Part shown: positions 214 to 12,203 of the stretch, piece after piece | How the letters are laid out: every line of letters begins with the position of its first letter | Numbering within the stretch: the first letter of the stretch is position 1 | Virus record (IMG/VR): IMGVR_UViG_3300037827_001081 | Location: 1 to 23,305 of that record | Source: a virus | Strand: one strand, 5' to 3' | Length of the DNA stretch: 23,305 nt | Made by a program: the position numbers and the translations under genes | The notes under the pieces: model-generated | What the model was told of the DNA's origin: nothing | Databases searched by the model: none | What the model saw: only the letters and a program-made list of their open reading frames with translations

Positions 214-455
214 CCGGCAACCCGCAGCAGGCTGAGGGGCTCCGCCCCGACTTCGCCGCGATCGCCGCGACCGACCCGGACACCCCGGTCGGGCTCACCG
301 AGATCAGGCAGCTGCTCGGCGCGGCGAGAAACACGGTGGACGGCTGGCGGTCGAGGAAGCTGCTCCCGGACCCGGACTGGCCGGTCGGGGGCCGGCCGGC
401 GTGGCGGTGGGCGAAGGTCGAGGCGTGGGCTCGCGCGACGGGGAGACTGCCATGA
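210..455 (+). CDS. excisionase/AlpA-like helix-turn-helix DNA-binding protein
   Basis: This 81-residue protein starts at GTG 210, which overlaps the preceding stop as GTGA and sits behind a GGGGAGA ribosome-binding site. Residues around 32-76 follow the pattern of phage excisionase/AlpA winged helix-turn-helix proteins: GLTEIRQLLG, then NTVDGWRSRKLLP as the recognition helix, then a wing ending in GRPAWRWAKVEAWA. Members of this group bind DNA near attachment sites or act as small regulators. Its place at the head of the accessory block fits a regulator. No integrase lies beside it in the window, so an excision role is unproven. The start is chosen from the GTGA coupling; the frame itself is open further upstream. 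Confidence 0.8.
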   Translation: MTGNPQQAEGLRPDFAAIAATDPDTPVGLTEIRQLLGAARNTVDGWRSRKLLPDPDWPVGGRPAWRWAKVEAWARATGRLP

Positions 456-1867
456 TGCCGCTCCCCGTCGCCGTGACGGTCCCGCCGATCCCGCGCGGCT
501 CGTCGCGGTCGTGGCGGCGCCTCATCACCACGGTTGCGGAGGGGGCCTCCGGCTCGCGCGGGATGGACGGGGCGTGGCTGGACAGCGGCTGCGCGTACGA
601 GATCCCGGTCGGCGCGGTCGTCCTGGCCTGCGACACGTTCAGCATGCAGCGGAACGTGCGGATGTACACCCCGGACGAGTCTGTGCCGGGCGGGCTGCGG
701 CTCGTCAAGGGCTGGGACATCAAAGCGCCGCTGGGGAAAGCCGTCACCGGTTTCATCGCGCGCCGCCTGGCGGCCGGCGCCGCGAATCACAAGGCGGTGC
801 CCGTCGACGGCCTGCCGAACCGGTACGACGGCACCTGCATGCTCTGCTCCCAGCCCGTCGCGCGCCACGAAGGCATCACGGCGAAGGACCGGGACGACGG
901 CCGGACCAGGGTCGCGCACCCCAAGGGCGCCTGCCCGCCCCCGCCGCCGCTACCGGCCCGCGAGGAGCCGAACAAGTACGCCGGCGCGTGCAGACTCTGC
1001 GGCGGCTGGGTCGAAGCTGGCACTGGAGCGGCTGTCCTCGCGAAGTCACCGGAACCGGGGAGCAAAGCCAACTACCAGCCGGTGCACCTCGCGGACTGCC
1101 CCGAACCGCCGCCAGGACCGCTCAACAGCCGTCACGGCTGGTGCTCGGAATGCTTCGAGGAAGTCGGGCAGCGCGAAGGATGCTGGATGCCCGGCCCCGG
1201 AACACCCGCCGCGCGGGTCCTCGTCCACCACCCGCGCTGCCCCAGGCCGGCGGACACCGTGCCGACGTGGGTCGTCCGGGCTCCGGAGGGGTATCCCCGC
1301 GCCGGCGAGGTGATCCGTGCCCGCATCGACACCCGCAACGGCGGCCCGGTCATCTCCGAGGACATCCCCGGCTACCGGGTCCTCACCGAAGACACCGGGT
1401 ACACGCAGATCTACGGGTACATCACCGACGTCATCCCGTCGCCGATGCGCGTCAGGGTCCGCGCCTGCGACGCCGAAGAGGCCTGCCCGCTCATCGAGGA
1501 GGACGCCGCGGCAGCCGCTGCGGTGACCGTGCACGGGCCGGGGTTCCGCGGTCAGTGGGCCGTGGAGCAGATCGGCGACAAGAAGCCGTGGGTCGCGGAG
1601 ATCACCGGCTGGCACCCGTCCTACGGGTTCGAGCGGGCGTTCCGGCGCTGCAAGGTCGACTACAGCGGCACCAACAAGCGCGGCACCCGCGGCACGATGT
1701 TCTGCTGGACGCTCGAGCTGGACACGGTCTACGAAGCCTGGTGGATGCGAAGCTGGAGCGACCATCACCGGGCGTTCCTCCGCGTCACCCCGGACGGGGA
1801 CGTGGAACAGATCGGCCGGGGGGAGGTCGAGGCATGGCTCGCAGTGCAGCAGCAGCCCGCCCGCTGA
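452..1867 (+). CDS. unknown protein with three tandem C-x2-C...H...C metal-binding modules
   Basis: The 471-residue protein starts at ATG 452, behind GGGGAGA and overlapping the previous stop by 4 bases. Residues 129-263 hold three similar modules: C129-x2-C132...H156...C161, C180-x2-C183...H212...C216, and C231-x2-C234...H259/H260...C263. Each has the spacing of a treble-clef or zinc-ribbon site, so three structural zinc ions are likely. The part before residue 125 and the long C-terminal part (about 270-471, rich in Trp and Tyr) match no family I know. The gene overlaps the PP-loop ATPase gene downstream by 34 bases, which implies coupled expression and perhaps a joint role. Zinc modules often bind nucleic acid or tRNA, but that is inference. 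Function is unknown. Confidence 0.85.
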   Translation: MMPLPVAVTVPPIPRGSSRSWRRLITTVAEGASGSRGMDGAWLDSGCAYEIPVGAVVLACDTFSMQRNVRMYTPDESVPGGLRLVKGWDIKAPLGKAVTGFIARRLAAGAANHKAVPVDGLPNRYDGTCMLCSQPVARHEGITAKDRDDGRTRVAHPKGACPPPPPLPAREEPNKYAGACRLCGGWVEAGTGAAVLAKSPEPGSKANYQPVHLADCPEPPPGPLNSRHGWCSECFEEVGQREGCWMPGPGTPAARVLVHHPRCPRPADTVPTWVVRAPEGYPRAGEVIRARIDTRNGGPVISEDIPGYRVLTEDTGYTQIYGYITDVIPSPMRVRVRACDAEEACPLIEEDAAAAAAVTVHGPGFRGQWAVEQIGDKKPWVAEITGWHPSYGFERAFRRCKVDYSGTNKRGTRGTMFCWTLELDTVYEAWWMRSWSDHHRAFLRVTPDGDVEQIGRGEVEAWLAVQQQPAR

Positions 1868-3129
1868 GCGCCACCAAGAAGGGCCTCGGCATCGACGTCC
1901 TCACCGCGGCCCGGCAGCGGATCGCCCGGACCTTCGATGACTTCCCCGTCGTTTACGTGAGCTTCAGCGGAGGCAAGGATTCTACGGTCGCCTATGAGCT
2001 GGCGGCTCAGGAGGCTCGCGCCCGGGGCCGCCGGCTGGGCGTCCTGATTGTGGACCTGGAAGGGCAGTACGCCCACACCATCACGCACCTTCACACGATG
2101 CTGGACCGGCACGCAGACGTCTCCGACGTCTACTGGGTGTGCCTCCCGCTCGCCCTCCGCAACGCCGTGTCCCAGTTCCAGCCGAAGTGGCAATGCTGGG
2201 ACCCCGACCAGCAGGACGCGTGGATAAGGCCCCTCCCCGTCCACCCGGGGGTCATCTCCGACCCGGCGTTCTTCCCGTTCTTCAAGCGGGACATGGAGTT
2301 CGAAACATTCGTCCCCCTGTTCGGCCACTGGATGAGCGAGCAGCACAACGGCCGGATGACCGCGTGCATCGTCGCGATCCGCGCGGACGAGTCGCTGAAC
2401 CGGTACCGCACCATCGCCAGCCGCTACAAACGCAAGCACGAAACCCTCCAGTGGACGACGTTCATCGACGGCGGCCGGGGATCGCTTTACAACATGTACC
2501 CGATCTACGACTGGCGGACCGAGGACATCTGGCGGTTCCACGGCCGCTACAAGGACGCCCCGTATAACCGGATCTACGACCTCATGCACCAGGCGGGGCT
2601 GTCCGTCCACCAGGCCAGGCTGTGCCAGCCGTACGGGGACGACCAGCGAAAGGGACTGTGGCTGTTCCAGGTCCTGGAACCGAAGACGTGGCCGAAGGTG
2701 GTCGCGCGGGTCCAGGGCGCCAACTTCGGCGCCAGGTACGCCCGCGAGACGGGGAACGTCCTGGGGCGCATCACGATCACCAAACCCGGGTCGATCACGT
2801 GGTATCAGTACGCGATGGCACTCCTGGAGTCGATGCCGCCGGAAACCGCCGAGCACTTCCGCGACAAGATCAGCGTGTTCATACGCTGGTACGAGGACAA
2901 CCGCGGCTACGCCGGCGGGGTCATCGACGACGACGGGCCGACCTCGAAGGGGTCGGCGAACTGGAAGCGGATCTGCAAGGTTCTCCTGCAATACGACTAT
3001 TACTGCAAAGGGTTCTCGATGGCACCTCCTGCACATGAGGAAGCACTGAAGAAATACCGGCTTCGGATGCAGCAGAAACGCGGCGAATGGGGCTATGCGG
3101 GGCTGGAGCCCAGGGGGCGCCGTGCCTGA
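1834..3129 (+). CDS. ibrA: IbrA-like PP-loop ATPase (PAPS reductase/DUF3440 family)
   Basis: The 431-residue protein starts at ATG 1834 behind GGGGGAGG; the frame is open far upstream, but this start has the only good ribosome-binding site and leads directly into the domain. The PP-loop SFSGGKDS lies at residues 43-50 and is intact, so ATP binding and substrate adenylation are expected. The C-terminal half has DUF3440 hallmarks: CQPYGDDQRKGLWLF and NWKRICKVLLQYDYYCKG, with conserved cysteines. IbrA was described in E. coli with its partner IbrB as a regulator of immunoglobulin-binding Eib proteins; the biochemical reaction is not established. The matching IbrB gene is 1.4 kb downstream, which strongly supports the assignment. 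The K-x-ECG-x-H motif of true PAPS reductases is not seen, so sulfate assimilation is unlikely. Confidence 0.93.
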   Translation: MARSAAAARPLSATKKGLGIDVLTAARQRIARTFDDFPVVYVSFSGGKDSTVAYELAAQEARARGRRLGVLIVDLEGQYAHTITHLHTMLDRHADVSDVYWVCLPLALRNAVSQFQPKWQCWDPDQQDAWIRPLPVHPGVISDPAFFPFFKRDMEFETFVPLFGHWMSEQHNGRMTACIVAIRADESLNRYRTIASRYKRKHETLQWTTFIDGGRGSLYNMYPIYDWRTEDIWRFHGRYKDAPYNRIYDLMHQAGLSVHQARLCQPYGDDQRKGLWLFQVLEPKTWPKVVARVQGANFGARYARETGNVLGRITITKPGSITWYQYAMALLESMPPETAEHFRDKISVFIRWYEDNRGYAGGVIDDDGPTSKGSANWKRICKVLLQYDYYCKGFSMAPPAHEEALKKYRLRMQQKRGEWGYAGLEPRGRRA

Positions 3130-3517
3130 AATGATCCGGCTCACCAGCAAAGACCCCAGGTTCTACCCGCTGCTGGGTCCGTACCTCGCCCGCAGGGACG
3201 TGGCCCGCGAGCTGGGCGGACGCCCCTGGGATGACCCCGGGAAGCAGTGGTGGGCGGTCACCGCGGCGGACGAGGCCGCCGGGTTCGCCGCCGCAGTCGC
3301 CGGACCCGACCAGGTGTGGCTGTGCAGTGCCTACGTGCTGCCGTCCTGGCGCGGCCAGGGTTTGCATTCGATCCTGGTGGCCGCGCGCCTGGGGTCGTTC
3401 CCGGGTTCGGTGCTGGAGGCGGTGTGCACGCCCGCGGGCCTCCGCGCGTACCGGTCAGCAGGGTTCACGGAGACCAGCGTGAAGGGCCGCTTCACTGTCG
3501 TCCGGCGGCTGCCGTGA
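3122..3517 (+). CDS. GNAT-fold acetyltransferase-like protein (first of two paralogues)
   Basis: The protein has 131 residues from GTG 3122, which overlaps the ibrA stop by 8 bases; ATG 3131 is an alternative start. The acetyl-CoA loop of GNAT enzymes is recognisable at residues 71-90 as VLPSWRGQGLHSILVAA, with RGQGLH at 77-82, and the C-terminal AYRSAGF is the usual final GNAT element. The N-terminus DPRFYPLLGPYLARRDV and the LGG..WDD element are shared with the protein at 4161-4553, so the two are paralogues. Substrate is unknown. Mom, the phage Mu adenine-modifying enzyme, also has a GNAT-like fold, so a DNA substrate is conceivable next to IbrA and IbrB, but nothing here proves it. Confidence 0.85.
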   Translation: MPEMIRLTSKDPRFYPLLGPYLARRDVARELGGRPWDDPGKQWWAVTAADEAAGFAAAVAGPDQVWLCSAYVLPSWRGQGLHSILVAARLGSFPGSVLEAVCTPAGLRAYRSAGFTETSVKGRFTVVRRLP

Positions 3518-3798
3518 CGGGCGGCGATGAGATCGCCGCGGCGGTCATGGCGGTCTTGCCCGGGAACGCCGCGGCCCGGATGCACGGCGAGGCAGTGTGG
3601 CTCGCCGTGCTGGACCGAATTCCCGGCGCCAGGCGAGAGGAGGTCACGGGGGCGCTGCTGCGGCTCACTGCGCAGGGGCGGGTGATCCGGTGGACGCGGT
3701 TCGCGCGTCCGGGGCAGGGCGGCATCGAACGGTGGTACCGGGCGGACTCTCCCGCTGAGGGGGCCGTACCGCCCCGGGCCGCATCCCTGTTCGACTGA
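3514..3798 (+). CDS. small winged-helix-like protein, unknown function
   Basis: The 94-residue protein starts at GTG 3514, overlapping the preceding stop as GTGA. The order of helices around residues 24-60 (AVWLAVLDRIPGARREEVTGALLRL, split here as AVWLAVLDRI, GARREEVTGA and LLRLTAQGRV) followed by a short basic strand RVIRWTRF looks like a winged-helix fold, in which one helix and the wing contact DNA. The C-terminal 20 residues are proline-rich and probably disordered. It is the last gene of the first plus-strand gene string and is followed by the palindromic promoter at 3803. A regulator of that promoter would fit its position, but this is inference. Confidence 0.72.
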   Translation: MTGGDEIAAAVMAVLPGNAAARMHGEAVWLAVLDRIPGARREEVTGALLRLTAQGRVIRWTRFARPGQGGIERWYRADSPAEGAVPPRAASLFD

Positions 3799-3802
3799 CT
3801 GC

Positions 3803-3839
3803 TTGACGCAAAGCTTAACCATGGCTAAGCTTTGCGTCA
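3803..3839 (+). promoter_or_regulatory. predicted promoter of a leaderless transcript
   Basis: A -35 box TTGACG (3803-3808) and a -10 box TAAGCT (3826-3831) are separated by 17 bases, the ideal spacing for the main sigma factor. Transcription would start about 7 bases downstream, at or next to the ATG at 3839, so the mRNA for the 47-residue gene would have no leader. The whole promoter lies inside a palindrome, which suggests a repressor dimer binds over it. Confidence 0.6.
3804..3839. repeat. 36-bp near-perfect palindrome, probable operator
   Basis: Perfect 14-base arms (3804-3817 and 3826-3839, TGACGCAAAGCTTA and its complement) flank an 8-base centre whose inner six bases CCATGG are themselves palindromic, leaving one mismatched pair. 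No T-run follows, so a terminator is less likely than an operator. The palindrome covers the -35 and -10 boxes and ends on the start codon of the next gene. Confidence 0.8.
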
Positions 3840-3982
3840 TGAACGCAGACGAAACCAGGTCCCGGGCGGCAACCGCCGCCGACCAGCTCGCCGCCGCGAT
3901 CCGGGAAGGCCGCGACGCCGACGCCCGCGACCTGCTCGCCGAGGCCGGACGGCTGACCGCCCTCTTGACGGCCGGCGAGTGA
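3839..3982 (+). CDS. 47-residue helical protein at the promoter-proximal end of the second gene string
   Basis: The gene starts at ATG 3839, the last bases of the palindrome, with no ribosome-binding site, as expected for a leaderless mRNA. The product is short, mostly helical and rich in Ala, Arg, Asp and Glu (TAADQLAAAIREGRDADARD). Its stop overlaps the GTG of the antitoxin-like gene as GTGA. The family is not recognised. A small helical protein directly behind an operator could be a self-regulator, but there is no clear helix-turn-helix motif. Confidence 0.65.
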   Translation: MNADETRSRAATAADQLAAAIREGRDADARDLLAEAGRLTALLTAGE

Positions 3983-4164
3983 CCGCCAGCCATGAGCGGG
4001 AGATGGGCATCCAGCAGGCGAGGGCCATCCTCGGGGATCTCACCCGGGACGCGGCAGCGGACGGCACTATCACCTGGCTGACCAGCCACCGCCGCCGCGT
4101 CGCCGCGATCGTTCCCGTTCACGTCGCTGACCGCGGCACCACGGAAGAGGAGGACGGGCTGTGA
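3979..4164 (+). CDS. Phd/YefM-type antitoxin-like protein
   Basis: The 61-residue protein starts at GTG 3979 (GTGA overlap); ATG 4003 is an alternative with a ribosome-binding site placed too close. The segment MGIQQARAILGDLTRDA, then ITWLTSHRRRVAAIVPV, matches the N-terminal Phd/YefM fold: a first helix ending in a conserved Leu, then a strand pair with R-x-VAAIVP. In toxin-antitoxin modules this fold binds the promoter and neutralises a partner toxin. No Doc, YoeB or PIN-type toxin gene is visible next to it. It may therefore be an orphan antitoxin protecting against host modules, or a DNA-binding regulator of this gene string. Confidence 0.75.
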   Translation: MTASHEREMGIQQARAILGDLTRDAAADGTITWLTSHRRRVAAIVPVHVADRGTTEEEDGL

Positions 4165-4553
4165 AGCTCCTGACGATCACCAACCAGGATCCTCGCTTCT
4201 ACCCGCTCCTCGGCCCGTTCCTCGCCTCCCGCGACGTCGTCTCCTATCTCGGCGGCCACATGTGGGACGACGACGGCAAGGCGTGGACCGTCGCCATCGG
4301 CGCCAGCGGAGTCGGGGGATTCATCGGGGCCATCCGCGGTCGCGGCGGCGTCATCAAGGCCCAGTCCTGTTACGCCGTCCCCGGTCACGAGGCCGTCATC
4401 CCGGCGTTGATCCGTGCCGTCATCGACGCGTCATCCCCGTCACCGCTCACAGCGGTAGTCCGCGGCGATCATGCCGGCCCGTGGCTCGCCGAGGGCTTCA
4501 CGTCCGTTCAGGACAAGGGCCGGTTCGCGCACCTCGTCCGCAAGGGAGACTGA
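4161..4553 (+). CDS. degenerate GNAT-fold paralogue
   Basis: The protein has 130 residues from GTG 4161, behind a strong GAGGAGG site and overlapping the upstream stop as GTGA. The N-terminus DPRFYPLLGPFLASRDV and LGGHMWDDDGKAWTVA align with the GNAT protein at 3122-3517, and the C-terminal GPWLAEGF...KGRF matches AYRSAGF...KGRF. The acetyl-CoA loop is not conserved: RGQGLH of the paralogue corresponds here to GHEAVI at about residues 75-80. It may be a catalytically dead subunit pairing with its paralogue, or an enzyme using a different donor. It lies 4 bases upstream of the ibrB-like gene. Confidence 0.85.
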   Translation: MKLLTITNQDPRFYPLLGPFLASRDVVSYLGGHMWDDDGKAWTVAIGASGVGGFIGAIRGRGGVIKAQSCYAVPGHEAVIPALIRAVIDASSPSPLTAVVRGDHAGPWLAEGFTSVQDKGRFAHLVRKGD

Positions 4554-4557
4554 CCCG

Positions 4558-5250
4558 GTGGATCTCCTATCCCAGGCCCTGGTGAACTCGGCGGCAGCGC
4601 TGTTCGAGCAGCTCAGCGAGATCCCCGCAGACGAGCGGATCGACGTCATCAACGAAATCCGCCTCGCGCTCCGCGCACATTCCCCGATGATGGCGGAGCC
4701 GGTCGATTGCGTGCTGTGGGTGGCAGCGGACGAGGTACGGGGCAATGAGTACAACCCGAACGTCGTTGCGCCGCCGGAGATGAAGCTCCTGAACCTGTCC
4801 ATTGAGCAGGACGGATACACGCAGCCCATCGTCGCGTGGCCCGCAGAAGGCGGCTACGAGGTGGTGGACGGGTTCCACCGGCACCGTGTCGGCAAGGAGA
4901 ACAAGAAGGTCCGCGAGCGCGTGCGGGGGCGCCTGCCGCTCACCGTGATGAATGGCGAACGGACTGCCATCGAGGACCGGCAGGCCGCCACGATCCGCCA
5001 CAACCGGGCACGCGGCCAGCACACCGTCGAAGGCATGAGCGACATCGTCGTGTTCTTGAGCCGCAAGGGCAAGAACGACGAGTGGATCGCGCGGGAGCTC
5101 GGGATGGACGCCGACGAGGTGACGCGCCTGCGGCAGGTGTCCGGCCTCGCGGAGATGTTCGCTGACGACGAGTTCAGCGAGGCGTGGGAAGCGGAGCGGG
5201 ATAAGCCGTGGTCCGTGCCGGATGCGGCAGAGCAGGAGGTGCCGAAGTGA
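4558..5250 (+). CDS. ibrB: IbrB-like ParB/sulfiredoxin-fold protein
   Basis: The 230-residue protein starts at GTG 4558, behind AAGGGAG and 4 bases after the previous stop. Residues about 50-150 form a ParB N-terminal domain: NEYNPNVVAPPEMKLL, then DGYTQPIVAW, then YEVVDGFHRHRVGKE, where DGFHRHR (104-110) takes the place of the GERR box of chromosomal ParB. Residues about 165-195 look like a helix-turn-helix (EWIARELGMDADEVTRLRQV). IbrB proteins occur with IbrA; in E. coli the pair activates eib genes. ParB-fold proteins can bind CTP or act as ATP-dependent kinases or nucleases; which applies here is unknown. There is no parA nearby, so plasmid or chromosome partition is unlikely. Confidence 0.93.
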   Translation: MDLLSQALVNSAAALFEQLSEIPADERIDVINEIRLALRAHSPMMAEPVDCVLWVAADEVRGNEYNPNVVAPPEMKLLNLSIEQDGYTQPIVAWPAEGGYEVVDGFHRHRVGKENKKVRERVRGRLPLTVMNGERTAIEDRQAATIRHNRARGQHTVEGMSDIVVFLSRKGKNDEWIARELGMDADEVTRLRQVSGLAEMFADDEFSEAWEAERDKPWSVPDAAEQEVPK

Positions 5251-5522
5251 AATGGGAAAAGATGACCCGCAGGCAGCGTGACGCTGCCCGTGACATCACT
5301 GAGCGGCTGTGGAAGGCCGGGGTGTCCGGGTGCACGGTGAGCCAGGTCGCGAAGTACTTCGACGAGTCAATGGCGTGGGACAAGGGACGGATGCCACTGG
5401 CGGAGCTGCGCGGGTTTCTGCACGTCCCGGTGCAGGTCGGTGATGCGCCGGGAAGCGCCGGACTTGACGCCCTTCTCGACGGCGATGATCTGGCTGAGTC
5501 GGGTCATGGAAACGAATACTAG
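5247..5522 (+). CDS. small protein with a helix-turn-helix-like N-terminus, unknown function
   Basis: The 91-residue protein starts at GTG 5247, which overlaps the ibrB-like stop as GTGA and follows AGGAGG at ideal spacing. Residues 6-45 (RRQRDAARDITERLW, then GCTVSQVAKYFDESM) could form a helix-turn-helix. The C-terminus is acidic. No family is recognised. It is the last gene of the plus-strand accessory block and is followed by the bidirectional terminator at 5553-5602. Confidence 0.75.
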   Translation: MKWEKMTRRQRDAARDITERLWKAGVSGCTVSQVAKYFDESMAWDKGRMPLAELRGFLHVPVQVGDAPGSAGLDALLDGDDLAESGHGNEY

Positions 5523-5552
5523 CCCTAGGTGATCCTTATCCCGGAACGCGCA

Positions 5553-5978: not shown

Positions 5979-6845
5979 TCAGGCGGCGAGCGTGATGGTC
6001 TTGAAATCGGCGTACTGGGACAGGTAGTCCAGCGTGGAAGCGTGAAGCAGGTAATCACCGGCTATCCCAAAGGAGGCCGACCAGCTATTCCGCACCTGGA
6101 TGACGGTGTTCTGCAGGTCCACGTGCCCGCTGGCGGTCTGCGCGAGCTGAGGGATGCCCCGCTGCAGCGTCTCGTGGCCCCCGGCGACACCGGAGGCGAT
6201 CGCGGCCTCGAGCGCGTCTATGCTCCCGTCGCCGTCAACGAACCCCTGGCTGTCCGGCTCGAACCACGACTTGAACCACGGCAGCCCTTGCATCACCGTC
6301 GACGACTGGAGGAGGGACAGCGCACCGAGGACACCGGACGCGGTCTTCCAGATCGTCGCGAACCGCGCCTGTTCCATCTCGGTGCACACGTAATAGCCCG
6401 ACGAACCGCAGTCTGTCGGCGGCCATTCGCTCGCCGGGTCGCCAGTCTGGTCGGTGACCGCGTGGTACAGGACAATCGCGAACTCTTCGGCCGTCTTCGC
6501 GTCGGGCTGCCGCAGGTCGAGTACGACCGAGGCCGCGCCGCTCTCGTTCATGGAGCCGAGACCGACGACCTCACGTCCCGCGGCCGCCATCCGCTCGGCC
6601 AGGTGCGCTGTCCCTGCGTTGCAGGTGCATGACCCGAGGGCGTCCACCTTCGCCGCGCCAGGTACCAGCACGCTGGTGTCGATGCCTTGCGCCAGGAGAT
6701 CCTCTTGGTCGAGTACCGGGAGCGGGATGTCGTGCATGACTTCCTGCAGCGGCGCTCCATCGTGGACGTGGAGGCGGTGGAGCTGCAGCGGGGCGACGGA
6801 CTGAAGCCTGCCGAACTTGGTGGCGGTAGGACCGATGTAGGACAC
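5979..6845 (-). CDS. papain-like (C1-type) cysteine peptidase
   Basis: I place the start at GTG 6845 (288 residues), because GGAGG lies 7 bases upstream; the ATG at 6863 has no ribosome-binding site and would put that GGAGG inside the gene. The catalytic residues of the papain fold appear in order: Cys73 in LGSCTCNAG, His224 in AGGHETL, and Asn253 in VIQVRNSWSASFG, the last matching the usual V-x-NSW-x-x-x-WG-x-x-GY block. The glutamine that normally forms the oxyanion hole six residues before the Cys is replaced by Val. No signal peptide is visible. The gene lies just downstream of the endolysin, so roles in lysis, wall cross-bridge cleavage or processing of a host or phage protein are all possible. 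Confidence 0.8.
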   Translation of the reverse strand: MSYIGPTATKFGRLQSVAPLQLHRLHVHDGAPLQEVMHDIPLPVLDQEDLLAQGIDTSVLVPGAAKVDALGSCTCNAGTAHLAERMAAAGREVVGLGSMNESGAASVVLDLRQPDAKTAEEFAIVLYHAVTDQTGDPASEWPPTDCGSSGYYVCTEMEQARFATIWKTASGVLGALSLLQSSTVMQGLPWFKSWFEPDSQGFVDGDGSIDALEAAIASGVAGGHETLQRGIPQLAQTASGHVDLQNTVIQVRNSWSASFGIAGDYLLHASTLDYLSQYADFKTITLAA

Positions 6846-6864
6846 GGGGTTGCCTCCAGGCATG

Positions 6865-11245: not shown

Positions 11246-11565
11246 CAGACCTGCCTCCAGGTGTTCCCCTCATCGAGGTAGCCGTGCCAGTAGTACGGCT
11301 GCGGACCGCATCCGATCGAGGCGCGGATCTCCAGCGAACCGTCCGGGCACTCGCGGAACGTCCACGGCGGCTCGTACACGCCATGGAGGCCGGAATGCTC
11401 GTCGGGCCGGTCGAACATGTCCGCGCCCTTGTGCGTTGGCAGCAGGAACCAGACGACGCGCTCGGTCTTGTCGCCGCGCTCGATCGGGTGCGGGCCGGTG
11501 TAGTCGCCTGCGCGCTCGAGGTCGTCGAGCGTGGGGACGCGGCGCGCTTGGCTGAGGGCGCTCAC
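11245..11565 (-). CDS. small conserved phage protein, unknown function
   Basis: The 106-residue protein starts at GTG 11565, overlapping the upstream stop as GTGA. The C-terminal half (PPWTFRECPDGSLEIRASIG, then PQPYYWHGYLDEGNTW) resembles small phage proteins of the DUF6527 kind, in which W-x-F, a strand pair and a final WHGY-x-x-x-G-x-W recur. The N-terminal half has HPIERGDKTERVVWFLLP. Function is unknown. It is part of the coupled minus-strand chain. Confidence 0.83.
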   Translation of the reverse strand: MSALSQARRVPTLDDLERAGDYTGPHPIERGDKTERVVWFLLPTHKGADMFDRPDEHSGLHGVYEPPWTFRECPDGSLEIRASIGCGPQPYYWHGYLDEGNTWRQV

Positions 11566-12203
11566 TTCACGGCTTCATGCGGTGCCGGTCCCTGCCGTGC
11601 GAATGCCTGCGTGGCCAGCGGGTGACTCGCGTCGAGAATGTGGGGGATGCCCGCAGCCTCGGCGGCCTGGTGCTCGGCGTGGAGAGCCGACCCGGGCGTG
11701 GCCCACAGGACTCGTACGCGGCTGTCCCCGGAGCCGGGAGGAGCAGCGGGGGCGACCGCGGCCGGGTGCCCTTCCCCGTCGGTGACCCACAACTGGAAGT
11801 CGTCTCGTTTCGTGAGCTGGATGTCCCAGACGCTCTTGGGGTAGTGATGCCAGCCACCGGTGTCCTGATGGTCGGACACGATGCCCTGGTGCATCCCTGG
11901 TGATAGCGGTACGCACGAGTTGAACAAGCTGTCCGTCCAGCGTGCGACACCCGCATGGTCGGTGATCGGCGTGTCCAGGATCGCCCCGCATTCGGTGTAT
12001 CCGAGGCGTTCCAGCTCGGCGACGGTCTCAGGGAACCGCGCGTAGAGACGCTGGGCGTTCTGCCGCAGAGCGTCGACCTTCGCCGGGTCGGCCGACCACT
12101 GGGCGGACCATTCAACCCCGCAGACATTCAAAAGGAGGAACCACCCGTCGCCGTCGAACACCCACAGGCTTCCGGCGTGATGGGCCTGCACCGGCGCGGT
12201 CAC
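11562..12203 (-). CDS. soluble phage protein, unknown function
   Basis: The 213-residue protein starts at GTG 12203, overlapping the upstream stop as GTGA. It has no membrane segment. Trp- and His-rich stretches (SLWVFDGDGWFLLLN, HQDTGGWHHYPKSVWDI) and a helix around FPETVAELERLGY are visible. No family or motif is recognised, and it is one of the larger proteins in the small-gene chain. Its stop overlaps the next GTG. Confidence 0.83.
   Translation of the reverse strand: MTAPVQAHHAGSLWVFDGDGWFLLLNVCGVEWSAQWSADPAKVDALRQNAQRLYARFPETVAELERLGYTECGAILDTPITDHAGVARWTDSLFNSCVPLSPGMHQGIVSDHQDTGGWHHYPKSVWDIQLTKRDDFQLWVTDGEGHPAAVAPAAPPGSGDSRVRVLWATPGSALHAEHQAAEAAGIPHILDASHPLATQAFARQGPAPHEAVK

Follow-up and report, generated by a model that had tools for sequence, protein, structure and literature searches.

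A narrow GNAT family and a K domain accompany the phage IbrA-IbrB pair in a cassette from a probable actinophage

The occurrence of IbrA and IbrB in one gene cluster with two GNAT genes and a zinc-module gene raises the question of whether these proteins form a system and, if so, what that system does. The DNA analysed here (the window) is the 23,305-base IMG/VR virus record IMGVR_UViG_3300037827_001081, which has 67.7% GC and is probably a fragment, so that genes missing from it are weak evidence. Its minus strand carries genes for tail, tape-measure and GH25 endolysin proteins. About 25% identity links one of the tail proteins to its counterpart in Streptomyces phages mu1/6 and SV1, a resemblance that makes an actinobacterial host likely, not proven. 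A DUF6424 protein is encoded between the lysis and tail genes (11562-12203, minus strand, E = 3e-49) and a peptidase-like protein near the endolysin (5979-6863, phrog_16701, E = 1e-12). A tRNA scan and a sigma-70 promoter scan both came back empty. The plus-strand cluster consists of ten open frames (GC3 0.75-0.93), neighbouring frames of which overlap by 4-34 nt, mostly by 4 nt, bearing out the two tightly coupled gene strings described in a first-pass annotation of this DNA. The first string encodes, in order, an HTH protein, a zinc/K protein, IbrA, GNAT1 and a wHTH protein. The second, beyond a perfect 14-bp palindrome, encodes a 47-aa ORF, a Phd-like protein, GNAT2, IbrB and, closing the string, a window-specific 91-aa protein (5247-5522).

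IbrA (1834-3129) is a PP-loop ATP pyrophosphatase matching DUF3440 (PF11922, 85.7 bits, cut-off 25), PAPS_reduct (PF01507, 37.1 bits, cut-off 22.5) and phrog_2302 (E = 8e-75), with the PP-loop SFSGGKDS at aa 43 and conserved cysteines at positions 121, 264, 381 and 391. IbrB (4558-5250), a ParB/Srx-fold protein (phrog_2159, E = 5e-67), begins 1.4 kb past IbrA, with the GNAT genes in between. The DUF3440 and phrog_2159 matches confirm the intact PP-loop ATPase and ParB-fold protein recognized in the first-pass annotation. A canonical ParB identity for IbrB was rejected (TIGR00180, 17.5 bits against a cut-off of 58.45), DGFHR standing in place of the GERR-type box. At the DGFHR position, SerK has DGHHR and Srx has GCHR.

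We compared 171 IbrA loci drawn from viral and genome collections and phage records, representing 159 clusters at 90% IbrA identity; L183, from one Streptomycetales genome, encodes a distant relative of IbrA (190 bits) with IbrB not nearby and was excluded as an IbrAB locus. IbrB lay within 3 kb of IbrA at 169 of the 171 loci, and phage records with relatives numbered 208 for IbrA and 218 for IbrB. The window proteins are 44% and 54% identical to the annotated IbrA-IbrB pair of phage PhiR5_2. Given its occurrence at 169 of 171 loci, the pair itself is not new: IbrA-IbrB is a known pair that is common in phages, and the proposal of an undescribed system is to that extent not supported. E. coli IbrA-IbrB and YbdN-YbdM (DUF3440 plus ParB/Srx) share the core families and their adjacent arrangement with the window, whereas genes for K, zinc, H and GNAT proteins are all absent from those enteric loci that were examined. 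Enterobacterial chromosomal copies directly adjoin a LysR-type regulator gene (17 clusters; for example, L136 6832-7845), as in E. coli ybdO-ybdN-ybdM. Among 173 IbrAs, the ATP-type PP-loop was among the near-invariant residues; C264, C381 and C391 occurred together in 144 and all four cysteines, including C121, in 127, two of the conserved cysteines being missing from a deep-branching group. The IbrB motifs DGFHR (aa 104) and RHNRARG (aa 147) were near-invariant across the 171 loci.

GNAT1 (3122-3517), whose gene overlaps that of IbrA by 8 nt, matches Pfam Acetyltransf_1. Its AF2 model (pLDDT 96) had 289 matches in the PDB at E ≤ 0.001, of which the ones listed were acyltransferases of the GNAT family, and the protein retains the acetyl-CoA motif as RGQGLH, the sixth residue of which is atypical with respect to R/Q-x-x-G-x-G/A. 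GNAT2 (4161-4553) is 35-38% identical to GNAT1, as expected of the paralogues previously reported, was matched by the family profile and not by Pfam, and has lost the acetyl-CoA-binding R-x-x-G motif; its closest relative is the single GNAT of L015. The profile was built from GNAT1, GNAT2 and the GNAT beside IbrA in L010, a 279-kb jumbo-phage contig. It detected the family at 13 of the 171 loci, each time beside IbrA/IbrB, and, as the window and L010 had seeded it, the remaining 11 loci are independent. With A, G and B standing for IbrA, GNAT and IbrB, and K and H for the partners described below, the gene orders were K-A-G-B, A-G-B, H-A-G-B, B-G-H-A and G-A-B. Two further close actinobacterial IbrAB loci picked by IbrA alone (L182 and L184) both had the GNAT, in the order K-A-G-B. 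The human-gut phage contig MT839645, the only match of the L042 GNAT in the GenBank phage collection, was G-A-B with the GNAT about 26 bp from IbrA, bringing the IbrA/IbrB-adjacent family to 16 loci in several phyla. In L010, the gene immediately preceding this cassette (4323-5546) encodes a protein that, judged by eye, resembles a LAGLIDADG-type homing endonuclease.

Bit scores in six genomes or records were 122-169 for the linked GNAT and at most 37 for any other GNAT. Scans of 396, 398 and 398 genomes from three phyla found no family member away from the index genomes; as the best candidates, ten at most, were scored in each genome, the exclusivity of the family is strong, not absolute. Viral scans with GNAT1 and GNAT2, and with the GNATs of L042, L030 and L097, returned already known loci or nothing. 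On the basis of adjacency at the loci, the bit-score gap and the empty scans of about 1,190 genomes, we rejected the GNAT as a chance neighbour. Other phage GNATs, such as RimI-like proteins and Mu Mom, have the same fold; unlike them, the window GNATs belong to a narrow family of their own that is linked to IbrAB, and the Mom family gave no match in Pfam or PHROGs scans, which are family scans rather than direct comparisons. A text search for the combination returned no report of GNAT-linked IbrAB, and an earlier mention may exist. Most IbrAB loci lack the GNAT, and most lack both it and the zinc proteins, a situation that the first-pass annotation had named as refuting its proposal; the GNAT is thus a dedicated module that is optional, one that IbrAB does not always include. 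The R-x-x-G motif is kept in GNAT1 and in the GNATs of L097, L027, L140, L042, L023 and L142, and is absent from GNAT2 and those of L015, L096, L182, L184, L109 and L110, suggesting that the family may be part enzyme and part scaffold. With seven members lacking the motif, acylation cannot be general.

The second recurrent partner is part of the 471-aa zinc/K protein (452-1867), which comprises an N-terminal region, three zinc-type modules of the form CxxC...H-x(n)-C beginning at 836, 989 and 1142, and a C-terminal K domain (approximately 1580-1867). The description of a three-module metal protein in the first-pass annotation was accurate as to the modules and omitted the C-terminal domain, which is the conserved part. 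Homologues of the N-terminal region occur in L182 (E = 2e-67), in L096 (E = 3e-38) and, as a separate gene, in L097; the zinc modules recur in actinobacterial relatives, some of which encode them as a separate gene. The K domain, an Ibr-associated beta domain, lies directly 5' of IbrA, the two genes overlapping by 34 nt. Of the 171 loci, 22 carry K, which at 21 of them stands directly 5' of IbrA, and, counting L182 and L184, this placement holds in 23 of 24 K-bearing loci. Since these loci were chosen by IbrA, we do not claim that K is exclusive to it; Streptococcus phage PH15 has a stand-alone copy near its lysis genes, downstream of the endolysin (L186 3007-3321), and the 5.9 kb examined there contain neither IbrA nor IbrB. 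Sequence likeness to K was found in phrog_26647 (E = 4e-12) and, at only E = 0.03, in PF07410 (Streptococcus phage Gp111). The AF2 model of K is confident (pLDDT 93) and all-beta, a fold search of the PDB gave no match better than E = 0.05 (best TM 0.25), and the domain as modelled may represent an unsolved fold.

The commonest IbrA-linked partner is H, a probably helical protein of 130-140 aa present at 73 IbrA loci (for example, L011 7774-8196, L003 4622-5020 and L005 4549-4974), scanned members of which had no Pfam or PHROG match. K and H occur together at none of the 171 loci and look like alternative IbrA partners. An ectoine-synthase-like cupin was also observed in the slot of the GNAT, between IbrA and IbrB or fused to IbrB (L007 6308-6700; L006 6308-7207).

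Both extras track the phylogeny of IbrA. GNAT distances follow IbrA distances (Mantel r = 0.63, p = 0.0002), as do K distances (Mantel r = 0.66, p = 0.0001). In a quick IbrA tree, with SH-aLRT as the only support measure, the six members of an actinobacterial clade that includes the window are all K-A-G-B, with 99% support. On the same tree, GNAT presence requires at least nine gains or losses spread across several branches, and repeated gain and repeated loss are each compatible with a functional link between the parts. The narrow GNAT family and the K domain are real partners of IbrA-IbrB, which is the new result. Their presence beside IbrA-IbrB in unrelated phages and bacteria suggests that IbrA, IbrB, GNAT and K probably act as one unit.

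The small genes of the cluster behave differently. The excisionase/MerR-like HTH gene (216-455; phrog_597, E = 6e-7; phrog_66, E = 8e-5), which overlaps the zinc/K gene by 4 nt at the start of the string, has no homologue near IbrA at other loci. The putative winged-helix protein (3514-3798), recognized by reading the sequence, has no Pfam match and no homologue at other loci. The Phd/YefM-like protein (3979-4164), whose match to PF02604 (E = 0.07) is below cut-off, likewise has no homologue there. As conserved cassette parts, the wHTH, Phd-like and small ORFs were rejected, having no homologue at any other locus. The idea that the whole cluster is one system therefore stands for the GNAT and for one portion of the metal protein, which are specific recurrent partners, and falls for the wHTH, Phd-like and small genes. 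The palindrome (3804-3839, strand not assigned) has the arms TGACGCAAAGCTTA and TAAGCTTTGCGTCA, perfect over 14 bp around an 8-nt spacer; it is AT-rich within a GC-rich region, spans a promoter-like TTGACG-17-TAAGCT and was found in the window alone among the loci compared. From its sequence, it is probably an autoregulated promoter-operator, a candidate for driving the second string. The ATG of the 47-aa ORF (3839-3982) lies on its edge, and this ORF is possibly leaderless.

Because the Phd-like gene follows a palindromic promoter region of its own and shares 4 nt with GNAT2, the two could be read as a toxin-antitoxin pair inserted in the cassette and unrelated to IbrAB. This is very improbable, since GNAT2 belongs to the IbrAB-linked family, its nearest relative in L015 has no Phd-like neighbour and GNAT2 itself is devoid of the acetyl-CoA motif, which GNAT toxins require in order to acetylate. 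A TacT/AtaT-type pair was rejected, the GNAT beside the Phd-like gene being the motif-less copy and the Phd-like gene not being conserved elsewhere.

Dnd, Ssp and BREX-4 likewise have a PAPS-reductase-like PP-loop protein (DndC, SspD, BrxP) near a ParB-superfamily protein (the ParB-fold DndB), so a phosphorothioate-like modification of the DNA backbone was considered, with IbrA in the part of DndC/SspD and IbrB in that of DndB. IbrA does share the PP-loop group of DndC (PADLOC DndC, E = 3e-5), its cysteines are conserved and early DNA-metabolism genes surround IbrAB. However, it scored 16.9 bits against the cut-off of 290.4 for the DndC equivalog TIGR03183, and its accessory proteins are other than those of Dnd, Ssp and BREX-4. 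No DndA, DndD or DndE was found among the ten cassette proteins or the recurrent neighbours, nor any DndD-/DndE-like protein or cysteine desulfurase among the latter, the contig being a fragment. We consider this explanation improbable, in agreement with the first-pass annotation, which had set the cluster apart from a normal phosphorothioate system. Still less credible is that IbrA is a phage PAPS reductase raising sulfite production. This is its usual database name, PF01507 matches, and the cys regulon shifts upon derepression of E. coli ybdN-ybdM, but TIGR02057 reached 17.6 bits against a cut-off of 254.2, the loop is the ATP-type SGGKDS, and sulfate assimilation is ill-suited to a near-fixed ParB/Srx partner and to K, H and GNAT modules. 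Both identities for IbrA were rejected as far under curated cut-offs.

We thus read the cassette as an actinophage version of IbrA-IbrB with two dedicated accessories, K/zinc and GNAT, and a target-modifying mechanism, a reading to which we assign a probability of about 45%. Its function is probably an ATP-dependent modification of the cysteine/sulfur type acting on nucleic acid or a nucleotide, as favoured by the PP-loop, the cysteines, the IbrB pocket, the replication or recombination genes often neighbouring phage IbrAB (DnaB, RecA-like AAA, PD-(D/E)XK, recombination) and a cys response. The latter comes from E. coli K-12, in which deletion of ybdO raised the IbrA/IbrB relatives ybdN and ybdM by log2 5.5 and 2.5, respectively, and cysH, cysI, cysA, cysC, cysD and cysN by log2 2.4-3.2 (PMC9068703). 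We infer that the cys rise is tied to YbdN-YbdM derepression, a link not drawn by the authors of that study, and the response may be indirect. The conserved IbrA cysteines would be compatible with a persulfide or iron-sulfur site; they could instead be structural.

In the mechanism that we propose, K, here fused to the three zinc modules and made together with IbrA, would be a targeting or docking subunit that selects the target. Acting early in infection, the system would probably be directed at a nucleic acid of the phage or host, or at a nucleotide. IbrA would adenylate the target with ATP, and its conserved cysteines would help to transfer a sulfur- or nitrogen-containing group. IbrB, through its Srx/SerK-like DGxHR pocket, would bind or spend a nucleotide, gating or completing the step; in a 2025 survey, the ligands reported for ParB folds are CTP, ATP or GTP, with GTP the one bound by a ParB-acetyltransferase fusion (PMC12704722). 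A GNAT with an intact acetyl-CoA site would acylate the product and one without it would be a binding subunit, this step being the least certain part of the mechanism.

Against a modifying role counts the fact that the only role known for E. coli ibrAB is to activate gene expression. IbrA-IbrB and its partners might thus co-activate phage or prophage genes, the zinc modules of K and IbrB binding DNA and the GNAT modifying a transcription protein. Activation of the prophage eib genes by ibrAB in ECOR-9, as Sandt 2002 is related in PMC7649339 and PMC10434257, agrees with this explanation, DNA binding fits both the zinc modules and the ParB fold, and proteins are the presumed substrates of phage RimI-like GNATs (PMC5512222). 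We nevertheless regard a regulator as unlikely, if less so than a phosphorothioate-like system, as the near-invariant PP-loop implies catalysis, the pair occurs in highly diverse phages of other hosts and IbrB is the sole conserved DNA-binding partner.

Under the modification reading, the cassette may act in nucleic-acid modification or counter-defence. A bolder proposal, which we hold to be doubtful, is that K/zinc, IbrA, GNAT and IbrB make up a four-part phage enzyme by which DNA, RNA or a nucleotide acquires a novel sulfur- or acyl-bearing modification that would protect the phage or reprogram host expression, IbrAB elsewhere being the bare core to which modules are exchangeably added (K or H, GNAT or cupin). 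The exchangeable partners recast what is annotated as "PAPS reductase + ParB" as a defined multi-subunit system, correcting a misleading annotation, and the specific partner proteins provide handles for the purification and genetics of a pair that is present in hundreds of phages and, as YbdN-YbdM, in E. coli.
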